IMG/VR virus record: IMGVR_UViG_3300024262_000009
Location: 1 to 38,842 of that record
Length of the DNA: 38,842 nucleotides
DNA from: a virus
Reading direction: 5' to 3' (one strand)
Under the pieces are notes generated by a model. The model saw only the letters and a program-made list of their open reading frames with translations. It ran no database searches and was not told the DNA's origin. Every line of letters starts with the position of its first letter. The first letter of the stretch is position 1. The translations under genes and the position numbers were made by a program. Below, piece after piece: positions 3,174-37,008 of the stretch.

Positions 3174-3830
3174 ATGAATAAACTTGAAAAGAAATTTTAT
3201 GAATTAGCAGGTGGATTGGATATTACAAATAAGATACCGACACACATAGATTTTAGAGGATTTTTAAAGCAACTTGCAGAAATAGCTGAAGAATATTATG
3301 TAAATTGTGATAAGTGTATGAAACTATGTGGAGAAAATACTGAACTTAAAAAGCAGATAGAATGTGAAATAGCAAATAATTCATTGACGCTTGAAAGATT
3401 GGCAATAACAGAAGAAGAATATGAAGAAGAAATAAAAGAACTTAAAAAGAAGATAGACATAATGAAAGATATTATTAAGGCATTGGAATATGATGTTAAA
3501 TTCTGGAAAGATAAAAGTAGGGGTCTTGCCATACCAATAACAAAAGATGAGATAGAGAAAGAATTTAAAAATTATAATGGAGCTCAACACGATGATGCAG
3601 TTGACGCTTTAAGTTTTGCAATCCAAACTCTTCATAGAAAACGAACATTATGGCGGAAAATTAAATTATGGTTTCGCAAATTAAAAAATTGGTTTCGTAA
3701 AAAGATATTAAAAGTGGAATATGCTTATGGTATTGATATGGCAAAAGGTAATGACTATTCTTGCAAAGTTACTATAAGACGAAATCTTATAACAGGGCAG
3801 ATAACAATTATAAAAATTGAATATTTTTAA
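3174..3830 (+). CDS. Coiled-coil protein with terminase-nuclease-like motifs in swapped order
   Basis: Residues 1-45 are unassigned; about 45-110 form a Lys/Glu coiled coil with a Cys-x2-Cys-x3-Cys cluster just before it. Then comes GAQHDDAVDALSFAIQ (about 136-151), which looks like the end of a large-terminase nuclease domain, a very basic Trp/Arg/Lys helix, and YAYGIDMAKGNDYS (about 183-196), which looks like the start of such a domain (the Asp in strand 1). In a normal terminase the second motif comes well before the first. It may be a mosaic of two terminase fragments or an unrelated RNase H-like protein. Located in the replication arm, far from the real terminase. Confidence 0.5.
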   Translation: MNKLEKKFYELAGGLDITNKIPTHIDFRGFLKQLAEIAEEYYVNCDKCMKLCGENTELKKQIECEIANNSLTLERLAITEEEYEEEIKELKKKIDIMKDIIKALEYDVKFWKDKSRGLAIPITKDEIEKEFKNYNGAQHDDAVDALSFAIQTLHRKRTLWRKIKLWFRKLKNWFRKKILKVEYAYGIDMAKGNDYSCKVTIRRNLITGQITIIKIEYF

Positions 3831-3839
3831 GGGGGAATA

Positions 3840-4049
3840 ATGGAAATAATAAGATATGTTTATAAATGCAACCTAGAAAATATGTTAAATTACGATATAA
3901 CTCTTGGTAAATTTATTGAATCAAGTAACCCCGAAAGTTATTTTATTAGTGAGCATAAAAAAGAACAGGAAAATTTGAATAGTCTTAAGAAACAGGCGAT
4001 TCAAATAAAAATAATAATTCCAGATATAACAAATGATAACAAAAACTAA
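3840..4049 (+). CDS. Hypothetical protein, 69 aa
   Basis: Strong site AAGGGGGAATA before ATG. Small mixed alpha/beta protein, not recognised. Its last 17 bases overlap the next gene, an HNH nuclease, a pattern seen at several HNH genes in this genome. Confidence 0.55.
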   Translation: MEIIRYVYKCNLENMLNYDITLGKFIESSNPESYFISEHKKEQENLNSLKKQAIQIKIIIPDITNDNKN

Positions 4050-4527
4050 AAGAAAACCAATAAAAAAAACAGCTAAAATTAAACTATGTCCTAATTGTGA
4101 AAACGAACTTGAAAAAGTACGCCCTGGATATCATTGCTCTATTTGTGGTTACTCTTATGTTAGGGGTAAAAAATCAGTTCTGGCAAAAGCAAAAGATAAA
4201 TGCGATGATATATGGAGAAAGATTATTCGGTCTAAAATAAGATGTGAGGTATGTGGAAGACCTGGTAATAATCCCCATCACGTAATTGGTAGGGATAACC
4301 ACACTGTAAGATGGGATATTCGTAATGGTTGCTTACTATGTTCTGGCTGTCATACTATGAATAATGGATCAGCCCATAAAGATCCACAGGATTTTATGAT
4401 TTGGTTTGAACATCACCGGCCAGACGATTATAAATATCTACTTAAAAAGAAAAATGAGATTTGGGATAAGGATTATGAGAAGGTGTTGGAATATTTGGAA
4501 GAATATAAAAATATAGGGAAGGAGTAA
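4033..4527 (+). CDS. HNH nuclease with N-terminal zinc ribbon
   Basis: Residues 19-42 form a zinc ribbon (CPNCENEL...CSICGYSY). Residues about 70-120 are an HNH domain: CEVCGRPGNNPHHVIGR, then a conserved NGCLLCSGCH with the final zinc ligands. The compact HH core and the CxxCH end differ from the other HNH genes here and are closer to phage recombination-type HNH enzymes (NinG-like). It could therefore be a working replication/recombination nuclease rather than a homing enzyme. The gene overlaps the upstream ORF by 17 bases and the next starts three bases after its stop. Confidence 0.75.
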   Translation: MITKTKRKPIKKTAKIKLCPNCENELEKVRPGYHCSICGYSYVRGKKSVLAKAKDKCDDIWRKIIRSKIRCEVCGRPGNNPHHVIGRDNHTVRWDIRNGCLLCSGCHTMNNGSAHKDPQDFMIWFEHHRPDDYKYLLKKKNEIWDKDYEKVLEYLEEYKNIGKE

Positions 4528-5144: not shown

Positions 5145-5300
5145 ATGACAAATAAAAACATAATCAAAAATCCCCACATATTAAATATTAGCATAGAAGA
5201 AGAACAATACGAAAAAATTAGAGAAATAGCATATAAAAGCAGGAAATCTATAGCGCAAGTATTAAGAGAATGGATTGATGAAATTATAGCAAAAATCTAA
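5145..5300 (+). CDS. Small ribbon-helix-helix protein, 51 aa
   Basis: The product fits the ribbon-helix-helix (CopG/Arc) fold: a short strand ILNISIEEEQYEKI, helix A IREIAYKSR, a turn KSIAQ, and helix B VLREWIDEII. Such dimers bind operators. It is near the end of the early transcription unit, about 230 bases before the terminator, so it may control the early-to-late switch. The ribosome site is weak (no clear AGGAGG), and the gene is short, but the fold pattern is convincing. Confidence 0.65.
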   Translation: MTNKNIIKNPHILNISIEEEQYEKIREIAYKSRKSIAQVLREWIDEIIAKI

Positions 5301-5528: not shown

Positions 5529-5574
5529 AGAGGAATTTTAGGAGTATAAAAGCTCTTAGGATTCCTCTTTTTTT
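5529..5574 (+). terminator. Rho-independent terminator ending the early arm
   Basis: A 16-bp stem (5529-5544 with 5553-5568), AGAGGAAT...ATTCCTCT at its base, includes some G-U or mismatched pairs around TTTAGGAG/CTCTTAGG. A T-run (5568-5574) follows directly. Clear intrinsic terminator for transcripts coming from the circle junction side. Confidence 0.85.
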
Positions 5575-5587
5575 ATTGGAGTAAATC

Positions 5588-5803
5588 TTGCAAGAAGTAA
5601 AAGAACAAATTAAAGATTCATTCTTACTGATTCAGCTATTGGATAAAGACTCTATTTCTAAAATTAATAAATTATTTGATACTCACTATTCTGCAAAACA
5701 GGTTAAGAAAAATATTCGGGTCCAGCGAGCCTCTAAAAAGTTTAAATTCTGGGATAGATTAGTTAGGGAGAAACCTGGCTTTGATAAGTGGGGTGAGGAG
5801 TGA
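5588..5803 (+). CDS. Hypothetical protein, 71 aa
   Basis: TTG start with GGAGTAAATC upstream. Helical, basic C-terminal half (KKNIRVQRASKKFKFWDRL). The stop overlaps the next start (GTGA). It lies between the early terminator and the late unit; function unknown. Confidence 0.55.
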   Translation: MQEVKEQIKDSFLLIQLLDKDSISKINKLFDTHYSAKQVKKNIRVQRASKKFKFWDRLVREKPGFDKWGEE

Positions 5804-6054
5804 GTAGGAGAAGAAGGCGTAAATATCAAAATCCTGTAGAAAGACTTTCTGAAAGATATGAATTTTTAGAGGAATTACTTATAAAGACTTCCGGCCACAT
5901 ACTCCTACTTCGGAAAATTAGAGGTAAAGCAAGCGAGCCGATAGATATTGATTTACTCGATATTAAAGATGAAATAGATGCAGATATAAATTATGTAATT
6001 AGAAAAATAGATGGAAAATTGAAACTGTTTGATACTCCTGATGGGATAAAATAA
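5800..6054 (+). CDS. Hypothetical basic protein, 84 aa
   Basis: GTG start inside the stop of the previous gene, with GAGGAG just before. It begins with an Arg run (SRRRRRK), then a helical middle and an acidic DIDLLDIKDEIDADI segment. Not recognised; the Arg-rich start suggests nucleic-acid contact. Confidence 0.55.
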   Translation: MSRRRRRKYQNPVERLSERYEFLEELLIKTSGHILLLRKIRGKASEPIDIDLLDIKDEIDADINYVIRKIDGKLKLFDTPDGIK

Positions 6055-6062
6055 TAAGGCAC

Positions 6063-6092
6063 TTGACAAAATCAATTTTAAAATGTTAAAAT
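6063..6092 (+). promoter_or_regulatory. Promoter P1 (TTGACA-N18-TAAAAT)
   Basis: Consensus -35 TTGACA at 6063-6068 and -10 TAAAAT at 6087-6092 with 18 bases between. It faces the terminase operon, but a terminator follows about 130 bases later, so its main product is a short RNA, with read-through possible. Confidence 0.7.
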
Positions 6093-6097
6093 CAGTA

Positions 6098-6225
6098 AGA
6101 TTTTGTACTGTGTCTAAAAAAAGTAGATGCTTGCGAGGTAATTACTTGAATAGGCCTTGATATGATAATATTGACGCCTATTCGTCTTAATTTATAAGAG
6201 TCTCTTTTTAGGGGCTCTTTTTTAT
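6098..6225 (+). ncRNA. Candidate small structured RNA upstream of the terminase genes
   Basis: Between promoter P1 and the terminator at 6196-6225 there is no credible ORF. The transcript, about 125 bases, would contain a perfect 8-bp stem GAATAGGC (6148-6155) with GCCTATTC (6176-6183) around a 20-base loop, then the terminator stem. A promoter, structured body and terminator make a full small-RNA unit. Position before the terminase invites comparison with packaging RNA, but it could equally be a regulatory RNA or an attenuated leader. Ends are estimated. Confidence 0.5.
6196..6225 (+). terminator. Rho-independent terminator after the small RNA
   Basis: AAGAGTCTC (6196-6204) pairs with GGGGCTCTT (6211-6219), nine pairs including two G-U, with a short T-rich loop and a T-run after it. 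It ends or attenuates transcription from P1. Confidence 0.8.
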
Positions 6226-6290
6226 ATTACGGGCCCTTAGTAATTCTCTAATAGAATGGGAATAGAACGGGGCTTTTTTATTGGGGAATA

Positions 6291-6464
6291 ATGGAAGAGA
6301 AGATTAGTTTTATTGCAGCATTAAATAATACTACAGCAATTAAAATTGATGGTGAAGGTGAATGTAAGGTAACGTTTCAGATTCCTGCTTCGGAGATGGC
6401 AAATGTTATTAAACTGGTTTTAAAAGTAGGAGAAACTTTTAGAGTGGTGATAGAAGATGAGTAA
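6291..6464 (+). CDS. Hypothetical protein, 57 aa
   Basis: ATG behind TTGGGGAATA. A strand-rich small protein, likely a beta-sandwich-like or dimeric fold (AIKIDGEGECKVTFQIP, then a helix and FRVVIED). Its end overlaps the small terminase start by eight bases, so it is the first gene of the packaging operon. No known family. Confidence 0.6.
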   Translation: MEEKISFIAALNNTTAIKIDGEGECKVTFQIPASEMANVIKLVLKVGETFRVVIEDE

Positions 6465-6846
6465 GAATGAATTGGCGGTTAAAACCGCGAAAAAACCGCG
6501 AGGCAAAGGTAGACCATTTGAGAAAGGAAATAAAGCTAATCTCAATGGAAGGCCAAAAGGTTCAGTTAATGAAGTAACAAAATTCAAAGAAGCTATCAAG
6601 ATATTTGAAAAAGAACAGCAGAAGTCTATTTACGAGATTCTTTTAAAGAAAGCTCTTGTAAATCCTCACGTTCTTGTTGCAATTTTTAAAGCATTAATCC
6701 CACAGCAAACCGAATCGAGTATAAAAGTTGAGAATATCGGCCGGCCTTACAAAGATTTATCTGACGAGGAGTTAATAATAAAAGCAAATGAAATCCTTAA
6801 CAGAACAGCAACACCAGGGAATAGAAGAGATATTAGCAGAGCGTGA
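6457..6846 (+). CDS. terS: Putative small terminase subunit (DUF5681-like)
   Basis: Residues 15-35 carry the basic, Gly/Asn-rich GRPFEKGNKANLNGRP stretch typical of DUF5681 proteins, found next to phage large terminases. The rest is helical, with a possible oligomerising helix near 40-75. It sits directly before the large terminase and overlaps it by 59 bases, the usual small-terminase place. The small subunit recognises the packaging site and loads the motor. Size (129 aa) fits. The call rests on the motif and context. Confidence 0.65.
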   Translation: MSKNELAVKTAKKPRGKGRPFEKGNKANLNGRPKGSVNEVTKFKEAIKIFEKEQQKSIYEILLKKALVNPHVLVAIFKALIPQQTESSIKVENIGRPYKDLSDEELIIKANEILNRTATPGNRRDISRA

Positions 6847-8254
6847 GATAAAAGATGCTGAAAACTCCTTGTTTTATTATGGAAAATACATTTTAGGATT
6901 TAATCAGTTTGACGAGAATGTCCATAAAGAATGGGAGTTTTTCTTAAAAGGTGGAAAGAGATTAAAACTTGTTCTGATTCCAAGAGGGTATTTTAAATCA
7001 AGCTTCTTTACAATATCTCACCCACTTCAGGAATTATGTAAAAATAAAAGTAAAAGATTCCTTCTTACAAATGCAGTATTTGATAACGCAAAGGCTTTTT
7101 TAGGCTCAATAAAACAGCAAATTGAAACAAATCCAAAGCTTAAATGGTGGGGTCTTGAACCAGGCGATCCGTGGTCATCGGAAGAACTAACGGTAAAAAG
7201 AGATTCAATTCATAAAGAGCCATCAATCTCTATAGCAGGAATAGGAAGTCAGCTCCCTTCCCAGCATTATGATGAGATTATATGGGATGACCTTGTTAAT
7301 GACAAAAACATTACATCAAAAGAATATATTGATAAAGTTATAAATTGGTGGAAAAACTCACTTAACCTGCTTGATCCTGGAGGACTTGGGATCATCGTAG
7401 GCACACTCTGGCATTATCGGGATTTGTATCAATATGTCATTAAAAATTTAGCTGAACATTTTGATATCATAATAAAGAAAGCAACAGCAGACAATGGAAG
7501 TATTTACTTTGAGTCAAGGTTTCCGAAAGAAGAGCTTGAAAGACTTAAGAAGCTTTTAGGCCCATATATATACAACTTGCAGTACCAGAATGAACTTACT
7601 GATCCCGAAGACGCAATAATTAAACAGGATTGGATTTTAAAGTACAAGGAGCTTCCAAAACCAGTAAGAATGTTTATGACAATTGATCCTGCACTTTCAG
7701 AGGACCCTACAGCAGATTACAGCGTCATTATGATTTGTGCAGTAGATGCAGAGAATAATCTTTATGCAGTTGATTATGTTCGGGAGCATTTAGACCCGAA
7801 AGCCTTAATTGATAAGATTTTTGAGAAGGCAGCTGAGCATAAGCCGGTTAAGATTGGAATTGAAACTATAGCATTTCAAAGAGTTTTAAAGTTCTGGCTT
7901 GAAGATGAGATGAGGTCACGCTCAAAGTTTCTTCCTATTGAAGAACTTAAGACATCAGATAGGGCTAAACCTGATAGAATCCTTGCCTTACAGCCAAGAT
8001 TCAGTGCAAAGACTATTTTTATTAAAGGTTGGATGGCTGACTTAGAAGATGAACTAATAAGGTTTAGATATCCAGTATCAAATCAACTGCATGACGACTT
8101 AATAGATGCTCTTGCTTACCAGTTAGAGATTATATACAAGCCGAATGTGTACGAGAAGAAGGAGTTAATTTATATGTCTCCTGCCTGGTATGAGGATAAG
8201 TTTGGTAACAAACCGGAAGAATCTAATATTGCAAACCCGAATGTTTATAAATAA
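6788..8254 (+). CDS. terL: Terminase large subunit
   Basis: A packaging motor ATPase plus headful/end nuclease. The ATPase domain shows a Walker A variant PRGYFKSS (65-72) and Walker B YDEIIWDD (161-168). The RNase H-like nuclease domain begins at TIDPALSEDPTADYS (298-312), continues with IGIETIAF (about 359) and ends with HDDLIDALAY (about 440), giving the expected acidic residues. Length 488 fits the family. ATG 6788 lies within the small terminase gene; GAGGAG is 14 bases upstream, so expression is probably by coupling. Confidence 0.95.
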   Translation: MKSLTEQQHQGIEEILAEREIKDAENSLFYYGKYILGFNQFDENVHKEWEFFLKGGKRLKLVLIPRGYFKSSFFTISHPLQELCKNKSKRFLLTNAVFDNAKAFLGSIKQQIETNPKLKWWGLEPGDPWSSEELTVKRDSIHKEPSISIAGIGSQLPSQHYDEIIWDDLVNDKNITSKEYIDKVINWWKNSLNLLDPGGLGIIVGTLWHYRDLYQYVIKNLAEHFDIIIKKATADNGSIYFESRFPKEELERLKKLLGPYIYNLQYQNELTDPEDAIIKQDWILKYKELPKPVRMFMTIDPALSEDPTADYSVIMICAVDAENNLYAVDYVREHLDPKALIDKIFEKAAEHKPVKIGIETIAFQRVLKFWLEDEMRSRSKFLPIEELKTSDRAKPDRILALQPRFSAKTIFIKGWMADLEDELIRFRYPVSNQLHDDLIDALAYQLEIIYKPNVYEKKELIYMSPAWYEDKFGNKPEESNIANPNVYK

Positions 8255-16134: not shown

Positions 16135-16758
16135 ATGAGTTGGACAAAATCTCATGAAGCAAGAATAGGGAAAAGACTACCAGAAGAAACAAGAAGAAAA
16201 ATAAGTGAATCTCTAATGGGAAAAATACCTTGGAATAAAGGCAAAAAGGGTGTTCAACATCAATCCGAAGAAACAAGAAAAAAAATTAGCAAAGCAGTAA
16301 AGGGAAGAATTTTTTCAGAAGAACATAAACAGAAAATTAGTAAAGCCTTAACTGGTAAGACAAAAAGAAACTTACATTGGATAGGTAGAAGACATACTGA
16401 AGAATCTAAAAAGAAAAATAGTATATCTCATATTGGATTGAATGTTGGTAAAAAGAATGGTAATTGGCAAGGTGGGATTACTCCAATAAATATAAAAATT
16501 AAAATATCTAAAAAGTACCAAGACTGGCGAAAAAAAGTATTTGAAAGAGATGACTATACTTGCCAAATTTGTGAACAACGAGGTTATAAATTAGAAGTTC
16601 ATCATATTAAATCTTTCTCTAAATATCCCAAAAGAAGATTTTGGGTTTCAAATGGGATTACCCTTTGTAAAAATTGTCATCAAATAATTACTACATATCT
16701 TAAAAAAGGGGAAAAAAGAGGGAAATATAAAAAAATAAAATTAGAAGAGGTGGTTTAA
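16135..16758 (+). CDS. NUMOD3-HNH homing endonuclease
   Basis: Several NUMOD3-type helices come first: RLPEETRRKISESLMGK, QSEETRKKISKAVKGR, FSEEHKQKISKALTGK and RHTEESKKK (about residues 14-100), each binding DNA in the manner of T4-family homing enzymes. An HNH domain follows: FERDDYTCQICEQRG, LEVHHIKSF, and LCKNCHQ at about 180. It sits in a gap of 11 bases after the adaptor and one base before the next fibre gene, so it is a clean intergenic insertion in the virion operon. Confidence 0.9.
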   Translation: MSWTKSHEARIGKRLPEETRRKISESLMGKIPWNKGKKGVQHQSEETRKKISKAVKGRIFSEEHKQKISKALTGKTKRNLHWIGRRHTEESKKKNSISHIGLNVGKKNGNWQGGITPINIKIKISKKYQDWRKKVFERDDYTCQICEQRGYKLEVHHIKSFSKYPKRRFWVSNGITLCKNCHQIITTYLKKGEKRGKYKKIKLEEVV

Positions 16759-27785: not shown

Positions 27786-28271
27786 ATGAATAAACAAGAT
27801 AAATTAACTGACAACAAAATTTGTTCTGGATGTAATAAAGAAAAACCCGTAAATGAGTTTTATAAACATAAACATTATAAAAATGGAATATATTATCTTT
27901 GCAAGGAATGCTATAAAAAGGATAGAAAAAATTTTTATCAAAAATATAGAGAAAAAATATTAAAACAAAGAAAAAAATATCGAGAAGAAAATAGAAAGAA
28001 AATTAATAAAGAAAGAGAAAAAAGAAGGCAATGGTTCTTTAAATATAAATTAGACAAGGGTTGCCAAATTTGTGGTTACAATAAATGTGCGGCTGCAATA
28101 GAATTTCACCATTTGGATTCAAACAAAAAGGATACTATTGGAAGTATGGGTAATTATAGTATGAAAAGAATTAAAAAAGAAATAGAAGAATGCATGCTTT
28201 TATGTGCAAATTGTCATAAGGAATTGCATGCTAATAATTATAAAAGAGATAAAAAAGGAAAATTCCAATGA
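27786..28271 (+). CDS. HNH homing-type endonuclease
   Basis: Two zinc knuckles at the start (CSGCNKEKPVNEFY and CKECYKK, residues 13-42), a basic repeat region (KYREKILKQRKKYREENRKK), then an HNH domain: CQICGYNKC, IEFHHLD (about 102), and CMLLCANCHKEL (about 137-148). Same overall family as the genes at 147, 30505 and 37431. It lies between the glycosidase and the M15 peptidase inside the lysis cassette, with the peptidase start overlapping its stop (ATGA). It is probably inserted into the peptidase gene. Confidence 0.9.
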   Translation: MNKQDKLTDNKICSGCNKEKPVNEFYKHKHYKNGIYYLCKECYKKDRKNFYQKYREKILKQRKKYREENRKKINKEREKRRQWFFKYKLDKGCQICGYNKCAAAIEFHHLDSNKKDTIGSMGNYSMKRIKKEIEECMLLCANCHKELHANNYKRDKKGKFQ

Positions 28272-29031: not shown

Positions 29032-29034
29032 ATA

Positions 29035-29074
29035 GGGTAGTTCGGTATTAATTATCGGACTACCCTTTTTTTTT
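29035..29074 (+). terminator. Strong terminator ending the late operon
   Basis: GGGTAGTTCGGTA (29035-29047) pairs with TATCGGACTACCC (29053-29065), 13 pairs including G-U, loop TTAAT, then nine T (29066-29074). It ends the 23-kb late unit, and keeps it apart from the regulator promoter 60 bases downstream. Confidence 0.92.
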
Positions 29075-29133
29075 GTTCTAAAATCGGAAATCAATTCAAA
29101 TATAAAAAATATCAATTCTGATAAAGATTTTAC

Positions 29134-29162
29134 TTGACAAGGGTTTGTAGACGTATTATACT
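29134..29162 (+). promoter_or_regulatory. Promoter P2 (TTGACA-N17-TATACT), early/regulator operon
   Basis: Perfect -35 TTGACA (29134-29139), 17-base spacer, -10 TATACT (29157-29162). This is the best promoter in the window, driving the HTH gene and the early arm. Start of transcription is expected near 29169. Confidence 0.85.
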
Positions 29163-29207: not shown

Positions 29208-29432
29208 TTGAGCAGACCAGATACTACAATAGGATTTTACAGAGAAAAATTGAAAATAAGTCAGCAAAAAATCGCCGACATTCTTGGTATACCCAGAACT
29301 ACAATGTCCTTCTATGAAACAAAAAGAGAGTTCCCCATACTTGCAATTGCTGAAAAGATAGCAGAAATATTAAATGTTCCAATTGGAAAATTATATAGCC
29401 AAGAGGAATTAGAGGTTATAAAAACAAAATGA
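29208..29432 (+). CDS. XRE-family HTH transcriptional regulator, 74 aa
   Basis: TTG start with GGAGG (29197-29201). The HTH is plain: LKISQQKIADILGIPRTTMSFYETKR (about 16-40), followed by helices IAEKIAEILNVPIGKLY, as in Cro/CI-type one-domain regulators. The likely operators lie just before it. It could be the phage repressor or a Cro-like switch protein; there is no C-terminal peptidase domain for SOS cleavage, and no integrase was found, so lysogeny is uncertain. The stop overlaps the next HNH start. Confidence 0.85.
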   Translation: MSRPDTTIGFYREKLKISQQKIADILGIPRTTMSFYETKREFPILAIAEKIAEILNVPIGKLYSQEELEVIKTK

Positions 29433-29731
29433 AAAAACTTACAAATAAAGATTACATAATAATAGGCAAAATGTGGGAGAAAAAATCATCACTTTCAGAA
29501 TATAGAATAATAATGGCATTAAAATTAAGACGACCTTTAGAAAAAAATGAGATTGTCCACCACCTAAATGGAAATTCTGAAGACAATAGACTAGAAAATT
29601 TAAGGTTATGTAATAGTGCGAGTGAGCATAGGAGTTATCATTGGAAGTATTGTGAATGGCGAGAGATGAGAAGAGATTCAGTTTTATATCATAAAGAAGA
29701 TTTAGAAATAATAAAAAATGAAAACAAATAA
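29429..29731 (+). CDS. Small HNH_3-type endonuclease, 100 aa
   Basis: A minimal HNH_3 domain: YRIIMALKLRRPLEKNEIVHHLNGNSEDNRLENLRL (about 24-59), with the VHH core and the N-x8-N, then SASEHRSYH. No DNA-binding repeats or NUMOD modules. It overlaps the upstream regulator stop (ATGA) and the next gene by 14 bases. It could be a reduced homing enzyme that relies on little more than its nuclease core. Confidence 0.8.
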   Translation: MKKLTNKDYIIIGKMWEKKSSLSEYRIIMALKLRRPLEKNEIVHHLNGNSEDNRLENLRLCNSASEHRSYHWKYCEWREMRRDSVLYHKEDLEIIKNENK

Positions 29732-30504: not shown

Positions 30505-31089
30505 ATGAATAATATTAAAAAATGTAATAGATGTAAAAAAATAAAATCAGTTAATGAATTTTATAAAGATAAAAGAAGAAAAGATGGTTATACGTCTTAT
30601 TGCAAAGATTGCATAATTAAATATGTTAAGAAATATAAGAAAAATAATCGTGAAAGAACAAATAAAAATGCCAGAGAATGGAAGAAAAATAATCCAGAAA
30701 AAGTGAGGAAATGGAAGAAAAAGAATCCAGAGAGAAACAAAGAACTATGGATAAAGGCAAATAAAAAAAGAAGATTAAGTCCAACATATAAATTAAGCTG
30801 TGCGCTATCTGGTTCGATATGGAGAGCACTAAAAAGTGGTAAGTGCAAAAAACACTGGGAAACTCTGGTAAATTATACTTTACAGGATTTAATAACTCAT
30901 CTTGAAAGTAAATTTAAAGACGGTATGTCTTGGGAAAATTATGGCAAATGGCATATCGACCATAAAAAACCGATATCAAGTTTTAATTTCAGTTCTTATG
31001 AAGACCCAGAATTCGAAGAGTGTTGGGCATTAACAAATCTACAGCCTTTATGGGCTTCTGAAAATATTTCAAAAGGAGTAAAGCTATGA
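30505..31089 (+). CDS. HNH homing-type endonuclease (WHIDH type)
   Basis: N-terminal zinc pair CNRCKKIKSVNEFY and CKDCI (residues 6-37), basic WKKNNPEK repeats, then the C-terminal nuclease of the WHIDH class: WENYGKWHIDHKKPISSF (about 148-165), ECWALTNLQPLWASENISKG. The DH pair is the catalytic core in this group, which replaces the usual HH. Its stop overlaps the start of the next gene, and its last codons (AAAGGAGT) give that gene's ribosome site. Confidence 0.9.
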   Translation: MNNIKKCNRCKKIKSVNEFYKDKRRKDGYTSYCKDCIIKYVKKYKKNNRERTNKNAREWKKNNPEKVRKWKKKNPERNKELWIKANKKRRLSPTYKLSCALSGSIWRALKSGKCKKHWETLVNYTLQDLITHLESKFKDGMSWENYGKWHIDHKKPISSFNFSSYEDPEFEECWALTNLQPLWASENISKGVKL

Positions 31090-33858: not shown

Positions 33859-34014
33859 ATGAAAGAAAAAATAACAATTTCAAGTTTAACTTGCAAGAGG
33901 TGCAATTATTTTTGGATTCCACGTAAAGAAGAATTACCAATAACTTGCCCTTCTTGCCGAAGTCCCTATTGGAATAAAGAAAAGAGAATAAAATCGAATG
34001 ATAAAAGAAGTTAA
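33859..34014 (+). CDS. Zinc-ribbon protein, 51 aa
   Basis: First gene after promoter P3, about 16 bases after its -10, so its leader is almost absent. One zinc ribbon: LTCKRCNYFWIPRKEELPITC-type with CPSCRSPYW at 30-38. The CxxC...FWxPR...CPxCxSPYW pattern recurs in small proteins of phages and archaea. The end overlaps the HNH gene by 17 bases. Confidence 0.75.
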   Translation: MKEKITISSLTCKRCNYFWIPRKEELPITCPSCRSPYWNKEKRIKSNDKRS

Positions 34015-34654
34015 AAAAGGTCGAAATGGAAAATATTGTATCTGTATTTGTGATTATTGTTTAATGGAATTTAAGAGAGATTTTAATACAGCAGTAAAAT
34101 CAAAACATAACTTTTGTAATTATTTTTGTATGGGAAAATGGCAATCAGAAAATTTAATAGGAGAAAAGGCTACAACATTTGGTTATAAACATACCAAAAA
34201 AGCAAAGGAAAAAATAAGAATAGGGCATATTGGATTAAAGATGTCAGAAAAAAACAGAATAGAATTAATTAAAAGAATGAGCGGAAAAAATAGTCATCGT
34301 TGGAAAGGTGGTAGAAGAAAAGATAAAGATGGATATATTCTTGTTTATATACCCAACCATCCAAATGCAAATAGAGATGATAATTTTATTTTAGAACATA
34401 GATTAATAATGGAAAATTATTTAGGGAGACATCTATCACCCAATGAAATAATTCATCATATTAATATGGATAAATCTGATAATAGAATAGAAAATCTATA
34501 TCTTTATTCAGATAATGGACATCATACAAAAGATTATTTTTATATAAAAGATTTAATCAAGGAACTTTTAAATAAAGAAATAGTTGAGTTTAAAGAAGGA
34601 AAATACATTATTAAAAATAAAAAAGGAGATGAATTATGCCTATCAAAAATTTAG
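33998..34654 (+). CDS. NUMOD3-HNH_3 homing endonuclease
   Basis: A zinc-binding CDYC...FCNYFC N-terminal module (about 18-44), a NUMOD3-like helix (YKHTKKAKEKIRIGHIGLKMS), then SHRWKGGRR leading into HNH_3: FILEHRLIMENYLGRHLSPNEIIHHIN (about 126-152) and DNRIENLYLYSDNGHH. It lies between the zinc ribbon and annealing-type genes, overlapping each by 17 and 19 bases. Its end supplies the AAAAGGAGATG site of the next gene, so the insertion preserves neighbour translation. Confidence 0.9.
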   Translation: MIKEVKKGRNGKYCICICDYCLMEFKRDFNTAVKSKHNFCNYFCMGKWQSENLIGEKATTFGYKHTKKAKEKIRIGHIGLKMSEKNRIELIKRMSGKNSHRWKGGRRKDKDGYILVYIPNHPNANRDDNFILEHRLIMENYLGRHLSPNEIIHHINMDKSDNRIENLYLYSDNGHHTKDYFYIKDLIKELLNKEIVEFKEGKYIIKNKKGDELCLSKI

Positions 34655-36258: not shown

Positions 36259-36460
36259 AATATATTGCGGAGATTGTAAGGTAGTAATGAAAGAGATTGA
36301 TAATGAAAGTATCAATTGCTGTATTACCTCTCCGCCTTATTGGGCTTTAAGGTGCTATCTACCAGATACAGTTAAACTAAAAGATACTATTACGGGAGAA
36401 GAAAAAGAAAGTGTATTAAAAGAATTGACGTTATTAGGCATTAGTAGTATAATAAGGTAA
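36242..36460 (+). CDS. DNA methyltransferase, N-terminal part (split by HNH insertion)
   Basis: Begins LKLNKIYCGDCKVVMKEI and has the catalytic motif CCITSPPYWALR (27-38). The SPPYW form favours N4-cytosine methylation, with the order (SPPY first, FxGxG last) of class beta. Homologues run on into GLExTFEEY within a few dozen residues. Here the frame instead ends at a TAA (36458-36460) overlapping the ATG of an HNH gene. The rest of the enzyme resumes at 36992, so the gene is split into a 72-residue catalytic-motif piece and a large C-terminal piece. They may assemble as two chains. Confidence 0.85.
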   Translation: MLKLNKIYCGDCKVVMKEIDNESINCCITSPPYWALRCYLPDTVKLKDTITGEEKESVLKELTLLGISSIIR

Positions 36461-37008
36461 TGAGAGATAATAAAGGAAAATTTAAAAAGGGCTTTACATG
36501 GAGAAACACCAAACCATATTGGGATAGAGAATGGCTTCTTGTTCAGTATATAACATTGGGTAAAAGTTCTTCCGATATAGCAAAAGAGCAGGGGTGCCAT
36601 CGTAACAATGTTTACTACTTTTTAAAGAAATTTAATATAAACACAAGAACACTTTCGGAGGCAAGAAAAAATAAATATTGGGGACTATCCGGTGTTGATA
36701 ATCCTATGTGGAATAAATTAGGTGAACTAAATCCTAATTATAAAGGTGGAATAACTCCAGAAAGACAAGCATTTTATATAAGCCAAGAGTGGAAATCGGC
36801 TTGTAGTAAAGTTTGGAAAAGAGATAAAGCAACTTGTCAAAGATGTGGGTTGCATAAAGAAACGGATATGCCATTTCATATCCACCATATTAAAAGTTTT
36901 AAGTATAAAGAACTACGTTCTGATATAAATAATCTAATTTTACTTTGTGAAACTTGTCATCAGTGGACACACTCCGGGGGGAACAAAAACAATGATTACT
37001 TACAATAA
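36460..37008 (+). CDS. HTH-HNH homing endonuclease splitting the methyltransferase gene
   Basis: A helix-turn-helix (YITLGKSSSDIAKEQGCHRNNVYYFLKKF, about 29-57) gives DNA binding. A linker with GVDNPMWNKLGELNPNYKGG follows, then HNH: KRDKATCQRCGLHKETD, HIHHIKSF (about 147), and ILLCETCHQWTH. It starts one base inside the stop of the methyltransferase N-part and overlaps the C-part start by 17 bases. The whole insert is about 550 bases, all of it coding, leaving no space for an intron core. HNH codons here freely use NNT before A/G. Confidence 0.92.
   Translation: MRDNKGKFKKGFTWRNTKPYWDREWLLVQYITLGKSSSDIAKEQGCHRNNVYYFLKKFNINTRTLSEARKNKYWGLSGVDNPMWNKLGELNPNYKGGITPERQAFYISQEWKSACSKVWKRDKATCQRCGLHKETDMPFHIHHIKSFKYKELRSDINNLILLCETCHQWTHSGGNKNNDYLQ

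Follow-up and report, generated by a model that had tools for sequence, protein, structure and literature searches.

A promoter, short leader, and intrinsic terminator preceding the terminase genes in a group of uncultured phages: a candidate late-operon switch

The locus described here lies in the IMG/VR virus record IMGVR_UViG_3300024262_000009, which was analyzed over its whole length of 38,842 nucleotides (referred to below as the window). The presence of genes for a terminase large subunit (TerL), a portal protein, and a major head protein indicates a tailed phage, and a Phg_2220_C replication protein together with 3D and CAP domains suggests a Bacillota-like host. No prophage relatives were found in the bacterial genomes scanned, and a DNA-level search of the region against known phages found nothing similar. 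This one 39-kb record contains no fewer than eight genes of HNH or endonuclease VII-like type (147–695, 4033–4527, 16135–16758, 27786–28271, 29429–29731, 30505–31089, 33998–34654, and 36460–37008). Elsewhere in the window, at 29034–29162, a strong terminator is followed by a strong promoter (TTGACA-17-TATACT) before a small gene that looks by eye like an HTH repressor, and this is the probable start of the early region.

Ahead of the terminase genes, the order is a NinG-like HNH gene, o71, and bas84, all three being conserved companions of a promoter-leader-terminator (P-L-T) unit. The features of the region are as follows:

5529–5574, plus strand: intrinsic terminator (17-pair stem, T-run) before the o71/bas84 pair; similar terminators lie ahead of o71 in several relatives
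5588–5803, plus strand: o71, small conserved protein gene with no Pfam match; its HMM matches exactly the P-L-T lineages
5800–6054, plus strand: bas84, gene for a small Arg-rich protein, candidate late regulator; its HMM matches exactly the P-L-T lineages
6063–6092, plus strand: predicted promoter TTGACA-18-TAAAAT with a TGT extended -10; TTGACA is exact in 11 of 11 lineages
6113–6117, plus strand: TCTAA element at about +15, from sequence comparison
6118–6137, plus strand: core motif AAAAAGTAGATGCTTGCGAG, the first part of a structured insert, found otherwise only in L001/L002
6148–6183, plus strand: hairpin GAATAGGC-C-TTGATAT-GATA-ATATTGA-C-GCCTATTC
6196–6223, plus strand: predicted intrinsic terminator preceding the late operon
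6231–6279, plus strand: second terminator-like hairpin (GGGCCC..GGGGC) with a T-run, in the window only
6291–6464, plus strand: s57, first late gene, 57 aa
6457–6846, plus strand: probable terminase small subunit gene (terS), assigned by position, with a weak DUF5681 match under Pfam's cut-off
6788–8254, plus strand: terminase large subunit gene (terL; phrog_38, E 1e-85)

The whole unit spans 6063–6223 and has a leader of about 100 nt. The original prediction, made from this DNA alone, was of a complete small-RNA unit, and its parts were confirmed. The promoter is present with 11 of 12 matches, the -35 TTGACA at 6063–6068 being followed by an 18 bp spacer and by TGT-TAAAAT ending at 6092. The predicted 8-bp stem is exact and occurs once in the window (arms GAATAGGC at 6148–6155 and GCCTATTC at 6176–6183), but the hairpin is longer than had been described, with 15 pairs (8 + 7), the inner seven following a C-C mismatch. 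The terminator is likewise as predicted, with a 10-pair stem at 6196–6219 and a T-run to 6223, to which the hairpin at 6231–6279 is now added. The stretch had also been described as free of ORFs; the sole plus-strand ORF of at least 20 codons in the unit has 25 codons (6083–6160), and its start precedes that of the predicted transcript. At the sequence level, there is support for a transcription unit before the terminase genes.

The predicted RNA is unusually stable. The transcript including the terminator folded with a z of -5.56, with 0 of 200 dinucleotide shuffles as stable, the leader from the predicted start gave a z of -4.96 (0 of 500 shuffles), and the hairpin at 6148–6183 by itself gave a z of -7.0 relative to shuffles. 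Covariance models from Rfam matched no family in the leader region. In this AT-rich window, lone promoter-like or terminator-like matches showed no excess over chance, whereas TTGACA followed in order by a terminator occurred in 0.05% of shuffles of the window's stretch. What is above chance is the combination of promoter and terminator, and its conservation.

Relatives were gathered by means of TerL, s57, bas84, the capsid protein, and the upstream HNH protein. It was found that 11 lineages carry the P-L-T unit: the window, L002 (the same as L001), L009, L010, L013, L021, L023, L025, L034, L042, and L043. All 11, which are those bearing bas84, have an exact TTGACA and, 58 to 160 nt later, a terminator between bas84 and the terminase operon. 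For the first eight lineages, the layout appeared in at most 0.05% of dinucleotide shuffles of each stretch, and P-L-T-like units elsewhere in the tested loci numbered only 4 in 590 kb of strand sequence. A P-L-T-like match in L044 was left out, as it lies downstream of TerL in another phage. The terminators diverge in sequence across the 11 lineages, but the stem is kept and all of them fold. The T-run directly abuts an ATG in 8 of 11 lineages; this ATG begins a gene only in some of them, the frame closing at once in L021 and L023. In L021, L042, and L043, additional genes sit between the terminator and s57. Because the T-run abuts the ATG in most lineages, and because a search between the terminator and s57 of the window found no promoter, the operon is apparently transcribed only by read-through of the terminator.

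Within the leaders, an element of the form TC[TA]A[AG] was found 18 to 23 nt past the -10 in seven of the first eight lineages (0 of 5000 shuffles); among the others, L034 has TCAAG, and L042 and L043 have no clear fit. A Q-type module would have a sigma-dependent pause element and a Q-binding DNA element at the promoter; what was seen here is this shared TCTAA-like element and, in some lineages, -10-like hexamers past the -10, which are perfect only in L009 and L010. No promoter-proximal pause element stood out across all lineages, and a -10-like one is not claimed. A leader peptide was rejected: GTG-TCT-AAA frames are present in some leaders, but the start codons are not conserved. In L010, a gene that resembles RadC/JAB by eye (3599–4114, minus strand) lies between bas84 and the P-L-T unit. 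In L003 (4428–6053), the match to the capsid gene is split, residues 1–23 and 9–306 lying about 670 nt apart, which suggests an insertion or duplication near its start.

The presence of the P-L-T unit in 11 of 11 relatives that have bas84 indicates that it is most likely a late-gene switch and not a packaging RNA. We therefore favor, with somewhat better than even confidence, an interpretation in which this unit serves as the late operon's control leader, turned on and off by read-through in the manner of lambda Q-pR'-tR'. Among the functions originally offered for the RNA, a conditional leader fits best. The host-type promoter at 6063–6092 would start a transcript that would halt about 120 nt on, at the intrinsic terminator before s57, terS, terL, and the structural genes, and the late operon would be on when RNA polymerase reads through this terminator. 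The likeliest agent of read-through would be a phage protein encoded directly upstream, bas84 (5800–6054) or its neighbor o71, in a role like that of lambda Q at pR'-tR'. The sequence comparison establishes the anatomy of the unit, its conservation in 11 lineages, and its strict co-occurrence with bas84/o71; from it we infer a working promoter and terminator, regulated read-through, and bas84/o71 as the regulator.

The assignment of bas84/o71 to the switch comes mainly from strict co-occurrence. The bas84 and o71 HMMs match none of six sister phages (L035, L037, L038, L039, L040, and L041) that share the HNH gene and s57 or terS and are without o71, bas84, and the P-L-T unit. The P-L-T unit was present in 11 of 11 lineages with bas84 and in 0 of 6 without it (Fisher p 8e-5, for lineages that are not fully independent because they are related). 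This pattern is the main ground for grouping bas84/o71 with the P-L-T unit in a single functional module. The bas84 protein (84 aa) is basic, with Arg concentrated at the N-terminus, and is predicted to be helical (mean pLDDT 74.5). No Pfam match was obtained for it, the Q families PF03589, PF06530, and PF06323 included; a scan of o71 and the upstream genes for these three families was also negative, and a Foldseek comparison of the predicted bas84 fold gave no significant match. The lack of a family or fold match for bas84 counts against the favored interpretation, as does the lack of a pause element common to all lineages.

An ordinary activator at the promoter would predict the same co-occurrence of bas84/o71 with the P-L-T unit. 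Under this alternative, bas84/o71 or another factor raises initiation, and the terminator merely damps leaky starts and transcription arriving from upstream. Late activators of the RinA/ArpU type raise initiation at the late promoter, and the present locus resembles those systems in having a small regulator gene immediately upstream of the terS promoter; it differs in that a search of bas84/o71 for a RinA/ArpU family model or an HTH found none, and in that a terminator comes after the promoter. For an insulator, a place upstream of the activated promoter would be more natural than one behind it. An HTH gene occupies the same place in both sister phages that were examined, L035 and L037 (HTH_23, over Pfam's cut-off in L035), and late control of the activator type may therefore occur among these phages, but these HTH-bearing sisters have no P-L-T unit. 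Furthermore, five lineages (L009, L010, L021, L042, and L043) have a second TTGAC/TTGC box 9 to 10 bp, or one helical turn, past the first TTGACA, which is possibly an operator and as such would suit an activator. We consider this explanation unlikely, although it is, with the small RNA discussed below, one of the two main rivals of the late switch.

An element of about 47 nt, GTTGGTCGGGTGGGTGGATAAGCTTAAGGTGTTCGGAAGGAAAGCTAAAT, recurs almost unchanged in the regions upstream of terS in sister phages. It is hairpin-like and might represent either a structured RNA or a cos site. It was found at 5200–5264 in L035, 2718–2782 in L037, 5815–5880 in L038 (one gene further upstream), 2800–2858 in L040, 2570–2632 in L041, and 2292–2364 in L021, and it had no match in Rfam.

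The hairpins of the window have a distribution different from that of the promoter and terminator. The insert, which follows the TCTAA-like element and precedes the terminator, is confined to the window and L001/L002, the other 9 of 11 lineages having short leaders that lack it, and the two inserts have the core AAAAAGTARATGCKTGCGAG in common and little besides. A scan of all of IMG/VR for the core plus a closing TACTT matched only L001/L002; core-motif matches in L005 and L007 were rejected, as they lie in coding frames of unrelated phages at about chance level for the size of the collection. With a z of -0.42, the L002 leader showed no stability beyond that of shuffles. The bases that form the predicted core helix of the window are not kept in L002; therefore, no base pair is backed by covariation. 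Leaders of only 22 to 41 nt were found in six lineages, and the six short leaders tested were unstructured. These comparisons indicate that conservation does not extend to the striking hairpins, and that the two-hairpin insert is an optional addition in two lineages, where it may act in the stability or processing of the terminated leader or contribute some further regulation.

This distribution bears on each of the explanations in which the RNA itself is the functional element. The terminated leader might be a small RNA acting on host or phage mRNA, which could coexist with a late switch. The stable two-hairpin fold plus terminator and the 20-nt core kept with L002 while the remainder diverged are in keeping with such a function, for which there is a precedent in StxS, an sRNA of Stx phages made between pR' and tR' as a stable leader RNA alongside the late switch (PMC7873438). 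However, the structured part is absent from 9 of 11 lineages, and a search for antisense targets in the phage itself gave none above shuffles, so that we regard a dedicated small RNA as rather improbable. A regulatory RNA, as in the original prediction, may occur as a by-product: like StxS, the window RNA would be a terminated late-promoter transcript arising from antitermination control.

Alternatively, the nascent two-hairpin leader might itself modify the polymerase, as in the RNA-only antitermination of HK022 put, EAR, and Tn916 canT (PMC11658703). The resemblance to these is a structured leader RNA near the promoter and upstream of terminators, with two adjacent hairpins between promoter and terminator in the window. 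The structure here is optional, unlike in those systems: in 9 of 11 lineages the same terminator is present but no such RNA precedes it, and the L002 leader does not exceed shuffles in stability. This mechanism could apply to at most the two insert-bearing lineages, and we consider it very unlikely. An attenuator or riboswitch, in which alternative leader folds decide whether the terminator forms, would have the same layout of leader, terminator, and downstream operon. However, most leaders have no strong antiterminator pairing to the 5' arm of the terminator, the Rfam search mentioned above was negative, and an RNA switch would have little space in leaders that go down to about 22 nt; such control appears highly improbable.

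Two further explanations concern packaging. The insert might be a DNA site (cos or terminase binding) and not an RNA, as it contains a perfect inverted repeat adjoining terS, and in other phages packaging sites are located close to terS. It is present in only two lineages and is not kept in relatives with a very similar TerL, which leaves this explanation a very slim chance. A packaging RNA like the phi29 pRNA, which had also been suggested, has as its one support the position beside the terminase genes. Unlike in the phi29 system, TerL is here an ordinary terminase large subunit and not a phi29-type ATPase, and the structured RNA is missing in L009, L010, and L025, whose TerL is 73–82% identical. 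Because close relatives of this terminase manage without the structured RNA, we regard a packaging RNA as having a nearly negligible probability.

The favored interpretation, a late-operon leader controlled by read-through, has its closest counterpart in lambda, where the gene order is nin-Q-pR'-tR'. As at lambda Q/pR'/6S/tR', the predicted unit has a promoter, a short terminated leader, and an intrinsic terminator before the late operon, so that read-through would be needed, and as with nin-Q, the candidate regulator gene lies just upstream, after a NinG-like HNH gene. It differs from lambda in lacking a homologue of the three Q families, in having terS/terL and not lysis genes as the first late genes, and in its Bacillota-like gene content and a leader with a lineage-specific two-hairpin insert. 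In the late region of lambda, Q loads on the polymerase at a promoter-proximal pause and confers termination resistance (PMC7171158). As a tentative proposal, in which we have distinctly less than even confidence, bas84 (or the bas84/o71 pair) would be a new late-antiterminator family, outside the known Q families, acting on a promoter-terminator leader in Bacillota-like phages, with the two-hairpin insert as a lineage-specific RNA add-on that tunes the switch.

The locus also serves as a warning that, within a regulatory unit, conservation can be lowest in a striking hairpin RNA. If the interpretation given above is true, a group of uncultured phages has a simple, testable late switch that is linked to an unannotated protein family of about 82–100 residues, and sister phages may replace this read-through switch, at one and the same position, with a different regulator.
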